DNA of 64,000 nucleotides, taken from NCBI GenBank assembly GCA_002070945.1, contig MWEG01000028.1, positions 1-64,000 of the forward strand, written 5' to 3'. The notes below the pieces were generated by a model that saw nothing but the letters and a program-made list of their open reading frames with translations, ran no database searches and was not told the DNA's origin. The DNA comes from Lentisphaerae bacterium ADurb.Bin082 (GTDB taxonomy: Bacteria > Verrucomicrobiota > Lentisphaeria > Oligosphaerales > Oligosphaeraceae). Below are positions 11,786-12,418 of the stretch, piece after piece; position 1 is the first letter of the stretch, and each line of letters begins with the position of its first letter. Made by a program: the position numbers and the translations under genes.

Positions 11786-12418
11786 TCAAGGCGTTGTTGT
11801 TGTTGTTGTTGCTGCTGCGGCAGCGGCTTCGGCCTCTTTCTTGCGCTTGAATTCTTCGCGCATTTTTTGGCGTTCGGCCCGGGCGGCTTCCTCTTCTTCC
11901 GGAGTGACTTGGTGCCAGGCGCCGTCTTTCATGATAAAGCTTCCGGCCGGGGAGAAGAGTATGCTGGCCTTGGCTCTTTCGGCGGCCACGTCCTGGATCA
12001 GCATGCCATTTTCTTCGGCGATGATCTGGAACCATTTTTCGCGATCAGCATTTTCCGCTTTGACGATGTCGGCCTGTTCATTGCCGCGGACGCGGTAGAC
12101 GAGGAGTCCGTTCGAGTGTTCGCCGACCACGCCGCGCTTCTTCAAGTCGATGATGGTCTCCCGGCGTTCTCGGCGGCGAGCCCGGATTTCACTTTTTATC
12201 GCATCATTAGGGCTGGCCGTGCCGCTGCTGTCCTCAATGAATTCGCGTTTGATTTCATTGGCGACCTTGAGATTGACATCAAGAGTGATGTGAATCGGCT
12301 TGACCTCATGTTCGGTCACCACCGGCTTGACTTCGACTTTGTGGGTCGTGCAGGCAATGCCGACGACCAACGGAAAAACAGCGGCGATGATTCTGGTGGT
12401 GGTGATTTTCATGGTCAT
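11786..12418 (-). CDS. Fused YnbE-YdbL-like lipoprotein (DUF1318 domain)
   Basis: A 210-residue predicted lipoprotein with the lipidation Cys at residue 23 (VGIAC). Residues ~23-55 (HKVEVKPVV..PIHITLDVNLKV) match the small lipoprotein YnbE. Residues ~85-155 (RGVVGEHSNGLLVYR..IIAEENGMLIQDVAAERAKA) match YdbL. In E. coli the gene order is ydbH, ynbE, ydbL, with ynbE and ydbL separate; here they look fused. The start overlaps the stop of ydbH by 4 nt, so translation is probably coupled. The tail ends in a run of Ala then Thr, encoded by a trinucleotide microsatellite (~11789-11830). In E. coli YnbE is an outer-membrane partner of YdbH and YdbL modulates the complex. Confidence 0.8.
   Translation of the reverse strand: MTMKITTTRIIAAVFPLVVGIACTTHKVEVKPVVTEHEVKPIHITLDVNLKVANEIKREFIEDSSGTASPNDAIKSEIRARRRERRETIIDLKKRGVVGEHSNGLLVYRVRGNEQADIVKAENADREKWFQIIAEENGMLIQDVAAERAKASILFSPAGSFIMKDGAWHQVTPEEEEAARAERQKMREEFKRKKEAEAAAAAATTTTTTP

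Follow-up and report, generated by a model that had tools for sequence, protein, structure and literature searches.

One open reading frame downstream of ydbH in the DNA analyzed here appeared to encode both YnbE and YdbL, raising the question of whether the two proteins are genuinely joined in this organism and, if so, what the join says about where YdbL works. The window, as we call the whole stretch analyzed, comprises the first 64,000 nucleotides of contig MWEG01000028.1 from Lentisphaerae bacterium ADurb.Bin082. The route of bulk phospholipids to the outer membrane has long been in question, and the place of YdbL is the least defined part of the YdbH-YnbE bridge. Kumar, Davis and Ruiz reportedly proposed in PNAS in 2024 that YdbH is extended by a strand contributed by YnbE and that YdbL keeps YnbE from stacking on itself. 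In E. coli, YnbE works with YdbH in phospholipid transport (PMC11784454). We found that the window fusion is a genuine, conserved and recurrent join of known parts; in the literature searched, no description of a YnbE-YdbL fusion was found.

Identity of the two halves and reality of the join

The preliminary description of this DNA had placed a natural YnbE-YdbL fusion immediately downstream of ydbH. Its coordinates and the 4-nt overlap were exact, the strand, which it had left unstated, is the minus strand, and both halves as well as ydbH were identified by profiles. The layout of the gene is given in Table 1.

Table 1. Features of the fusion gene and of ydbH, with positions in the window
Feature	Position	Strand	Details and evidence
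ynbE-ydbL fusion gene	11786..12418	-	210 aa; stop codon included in coordinates
Lipoprotein-type signal peptide, residues 1-23	12350..12418	-	Ends Val-Gly-Ile-Ala-Cys; read by eye
YnbE part, residues 24-60	12239..12349	-	Strand motif VKPIHITLDVNLKV at residues 39-52; HMM of separate YnbE proteins, hhalign
Linker and start of first YdbL helix, residues 61-86	12161..12238	-	Replaces YdbL's own signal peptide; omega 0.26
YdbL/DUF1318 domain, residues 87-170	11909..12160	-	PF07027; pLDDT 94-98; PDB 28oj match
Charged helical tail, residues 171-210	11789..11908	-	Confined to the window's genus in the alignment of fused proteins; Ala/Thr runs at end; predicted helix 173-205
ydbH, 982 aa	12415..15363	-	Upstream of fusion gene; PF11739; predicted N-terminal membrane helix and long series of beta strands
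Overlap of ydbH stop and fusion start, 4 nt (ATGA)	12415..12418	-	Sequence

In the C-terminal half, PF07027 matched at E 7.4e-14 (52.5 bits against a curated cut-off of 27), which bears out the DUF1318 assignment made earlier for this half. The DUF1318 family profile also found the crystal structure of E. coli YdbL, PDB entry 28oj (E 4.8e-18); the record names the protein as probable chaperone-like. The predicted YdbL domain matched 28oj with a TM score of 0.82 by target length (rmsd 1.6, E 2.1e-4), and block-mean pLDDT in the single-chain model was high from residue 71 to residue 200 (Table 1). The C-terminal half is thus like E. coli YdbL (DUF1318, PF07027; 28oj) in domain family and fold, but it differs in lacking a signal peptide of its own, in being tethered behind YnbE, and in its extra C-terminal helical tail. 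By inspection, the separate YdbL proteins of relatives bear their own N-terminal signal-like segment, and alignments of the fused proteins revealed no such segment ahead of the YdbL domain. The fused YdbL part would therefore be exportable only via the YnbE signal. That signal ends in a permissive lipobox, VGIAC, read by eye behind a hydrophobic segment and with a non-canonical Gly at -3. Cys23 aligns with the Cys of relatives and was invariant or nearly so in the alignments, and we regard the fused protein as lipoprotein-like and presumably lipidated.

The N-terminal half was not matched by PF13617, the 34-position Pfam model of YnbE, which had no match in the remainder of the genome either; an NCBIfam search of the protein returned no YnbE match, and PF13617 gave weak matches to some fused relatives (best E 0.015). 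We then used an HMM built solely from relatives with a separate ynbE located near ydbH and ydbL. This profile matched the N-terminal half at E 1.7e-12 among 5041 ORFs, matched all 16 other fused genes (E 5e-22 to 2e-11), and recovered E. coli YnbE (E 0.0018). When hhalign was run with another set of 42 separate YnbE proteins, most of them from Desulfobacterota, the probability was 98.4% (P 4.3e-15) for the fused protein and, for E. coli YnbE, 86% (P 4.7e-6). Because of these matches to separate YnbE proteins and the shared position after ydbH, we assign the N-terminal half, on its sequence, as YnbE-related with high confidence. Of the YnbE-profile match proposed in the preliminary description, the Pfam part failed, and the identity stands by way of intermediate homologues and gene order. 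E. coli YnbE, an outer-membrane lipoprotein (PF13617), resembles the window YnbE, whose lipoprotein signal is putative, in its signal with Cys and its short beta-strand motif; its gene also follows ydbH immediately and overlaps it by 4 nt, so this overlap is not special to the fusion. What sets the window YnbE apart is that it runs in frame into YdbL and is undetected by PF13617. We also considered whether YnbE arose by duplication of the final strand of YdbH and rejected this; the motifs are alike, and the similarity was weak and not significant.

A congener from a separate assembly (G002, locus L143) harbored the same fused ORF at 92-93% identity, with whole-codon indels. Between it and the window gene, omega was 0.155 for the whole gene and 0.11 for the YdbL part (the linker value is in Table 1), and the YnbE part contained no nonsynonymous change. 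Because the congener shares the fusion with whole-codon indels and omega is below 1, the join is coding, under purifying selection, and no sequencing slip. The window does belong to a draft assembly in 126 contigs, and the contig L003 of a third congener (G001) is odd at its edge, as one might expect if sequencing or assembly had created the join; however, independent assemblies share the architecture, including that of Victivallis vadensis DSM 14823 (L186), and omega is well below 1 across the join. These independent genomes already refute an artefact, to which we attach a negligible probability. Nor is it at all probable that the N-terminal part serves only to hold YdbL at the outer membrane as a generic lipoprotein anchor, without functionally being YnbE. 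Such an anchor would suit the silence of PF13617 and a BLAST alignment to E. coli YnbE of just 13 residues, but not the strong match to separate ynbE genes sited with ydbH and ydbL, nor the conservation of the strand, whose motif KPI-H/Q-IT-x-DVNLKV is retained in most fused genes. By PF13617 the genome has no other YnbE to take this role, although that model misses the window YnbE too.

The third congener retained the C-terminal part only, as a partial gene at a chimeric-looking contig edge. There (L003, 1-125), an unrelated sequence, similar by eye to an extracellular sorting-type domain, stands in place of the N-terminal half, reflecting either misassembly or a real chimera.

Distribution and origins of the fusion

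We surveyed 80 loci and found 17 fused and 63 split, the latter including those of Oligosphaera ethanolica and E. coli. Among 198 genomes of the class, 87 had a match to the fused profile, with both halves in one open frame in 17, plus the partial gene of G001. The fused loci span three families, namely f1 (the window's genus), f24 (one genus) and f14 (four genera), each of which also has split members. Two cultured strains represent the two states: O. ethanolica DSM 24202, from the window's own family f1, is split, and V. vadensis DSM 14823, from f14, is fused. In a set of 80 named genome loci, fusions occurred in Lentisphaerae-, Victivallales- or Verrucomicrobia-labelled records, or uncultured-bacterium records, that match class genomes; the Desulfobacterota, Acidobacteria and Opitutales members were split. 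The 4-nt ydbH overlap was present in 15/17 fused and 17/48 split loci. The fusions of V. vadensis and of f24/g69 (Victivallales) share the fused architecture and mostly the same overlap with the window, but lack the C-terminal tail and have different linkers.

A gene split in close relatives had been named as evidence against the fusion, and the relatives gave a mixed answer. It is split in other genera of the family (O. ethanolica) and fused in the congener; the fusion is therefore derived, not refuted. The survey of related genomes suggested at the same time recovered it in several lineages, and this recurrence makes it more informative than had been claimed.

Beyond the class, a phylum sample of 388 genomes yielded further fused lipoprotein-DUF1318 genes in additional Verrucomicrobiota families. 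Some follow a YdbH-like gene; it is short in f45, and in f41 and f77 it is longer and gave weak matches. In f45 (L252-L254), this YdbH-like ORF measures 445-479 aa from stop to stop, about half the usual length. Within the 3 kb flanking the f48 fused genes (L255-L258), no YdbH-like ORF was detected, which would fit a diverged partner or a YdbH-independent role; the fusion may therefore also act elsewhere. The loci L259-L270 are likely fusions judging by sequence, their YnbE part being too diverged for the profile and recognised only by the Cys and a motif like (K/E)P(V/I)-K-(I/V)-x-(V/I)-x-M. One genome in this sample (G298, 2.2 Mb in one contig) carries two paralogous lipoprotein-DUF1318 genes, L259 and L260. 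Close coupling is not universal, since in one f1 genome, that of a close relative (G005; L024, L079, L080), ydbH-ynbE and ydbL sit on different contigs; the neighbor of ydbL there is an unrelated ORF, tubulin/FtsZ-like as judged by eye. Many f1 genomes had no match for the YnbE/YdbL pair.

To count the fusion events, we compared trees. In the tree of YdbH, whose history may differ from that of the downstream gene, the fused loci formed two separate, well-supported groups, each beside split relatives, and a single fused clade was rejected (AU p 0.00025). A tree of the YdbL domain united the fusions with support of 99/92 when the linker-adjacent helix was included. Without that helix there were two groups, one group appeared in 0% of bootstrap trees, and the AU test was not significant either way (p 0.24); the union seen with the helix probably reflects similar change next to the join. 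A single origin of all fusions, rejected by the YdbH tree and left without its YdbL support once the helix was removed, was accordingly set aside. The phylum-wide YdbL tree showed four groups of fusions, both in its best form and across the 5-95% bootstrap range, although a single change is all that its strongly supported branches require. At least two fusion events are likely for the class, with perhaps four across the whole phylum, and the Victivallis group seems to have arisen by an event of its own. The window's genus and f24/g69 (L145-L148) are closest relatives in both ydbH and the fusion despite belonging to different families, and for this reason the sequences suggest that the operon was transferred between them.

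The fused protein at the YdbH bridge

The upstream partner was matched by PF11739 at E 2.6e-24 (86.6 bits against a curated cut-off of 26.3). Its model has an N-terminal helix at 15-59 and many strands, the last at 954-963, with a mean pLDDT of 74 and a poorly modelled middle. Fold matches of this model to Vps13 and TamB were weak; a Vps13 fragment had a probability of 0.99 but an E value of 0.006. The window genome (91.5% complete) contained one YdbH, one DUF1318 protein and no separate YdbL, together with one AsmA-family match and one MCE/MlaD match. Compared with the E. coli ydbH-ynbE-ydbL operon, which encodes an AsmA-like intermembrane bridge, the window has the same gene order and the same three components, but in two genes rather than three, and profile searches of this draft genome at its stated completeness did not detect TamB or YhdP. 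Both are redundant with YdbH in E. coli (PMC8593681). If the genome picture is complete, YdbH would be the sole E. coli-type bridge of the three here, raising the importance of the fusion.

Our best explanation of the locus, which taken whole we consider somewhat better than an even bet, is a two-gene operon of ydbH and a fused ynbE-ydbL. YdbH would be anchored in the inner membrane and span the periplasm with a hydrophobic beta-groove, and the fused protein would be exported as a lipoprotein to the outer membrane. There, the YnbE strand (about residues 39-56) would be added to the edge left free at the C-terminal end of YdbH and so fasten the bridge to the outer membrane. Tethered next to this strand, one YdbL domain per YnbE would act in cis as a cap or chaperone against stacking of YnbE strands. 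Both the strand addition and the anti-stacking role are drawn by analogy from the E. coli work attributed above to Kumar, Davis and Ruiz. The YnbE part of the single-chain model had low confidence (pLDDT about 55-66) and an unplaced strand, as expected because such a strand needs a partner. The fusion is most readily reconciled with a YdbL domain that remains next to the YnbE strand and may contact it.

The preliminary description had proposed that a fusion implies action at a fixed 1:1 ratio at YdbH and supports a physical link between YnbE and YdbL. The link is supported by the conserved and recurrent fusion, and physical linkage with 1:1 synthesis and co-localisation is well supported; that the two also engage YdbH as a 1:1 complex, at that working ratio, would be a further step, which the fusion suggests and does not itself fix. 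Synthesis might be all that is balanced if periplasmic cleavage separated the fused precursor into YnbE and YdbL, leaving no working unit. As a cleaved segment might, the linker shows relatively low conservation and differs in length from group to group, but its omega remains low, it merges into the first YdbL helix with a high-confidence model from residue 70, and neither a second signal peptide nor a conserved site for cleavage can be seen, so we think cleavage improbable. A little less improbable, and still unlikely, is that the fusion is a neutral join of co-transcribed neighbours with little functional meaning. With a median of 21 nt between ynbE and ydbL at split loci, such a join is easily made, and the YdbL domain alone is compatible with one origin by the AU test given above. 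However, the join needed the loss of both the YdbL signal peptide and the ynbE stop codon, and the fused state has persisted in several lineages.

The recurrent natural fusion is thus genetic evidence that YdbL works beside YnbE at the outer-membrane end of the bridge, and it makes a strictly transient or catalytic role of YdbL less likely. A bolder reading, which we put forward tentatively and hold to be clearly less probable than the two-gene bridge set out above, is that YdbL is not a transient chaperone and may be a permanent, stoichiometric subunit at that end, capping YnbE to exactly one added strand. Fusion would then have hard-wired this subunit independently in several Verrucomicrobiota lineages, and in the window genome it would serve the only AsmA-type bridge detected of the three E. 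coli kinds. The fusions, for example that of the cultured V. vadensis, are ready-made single-chain constructs for structural and genetic tests.
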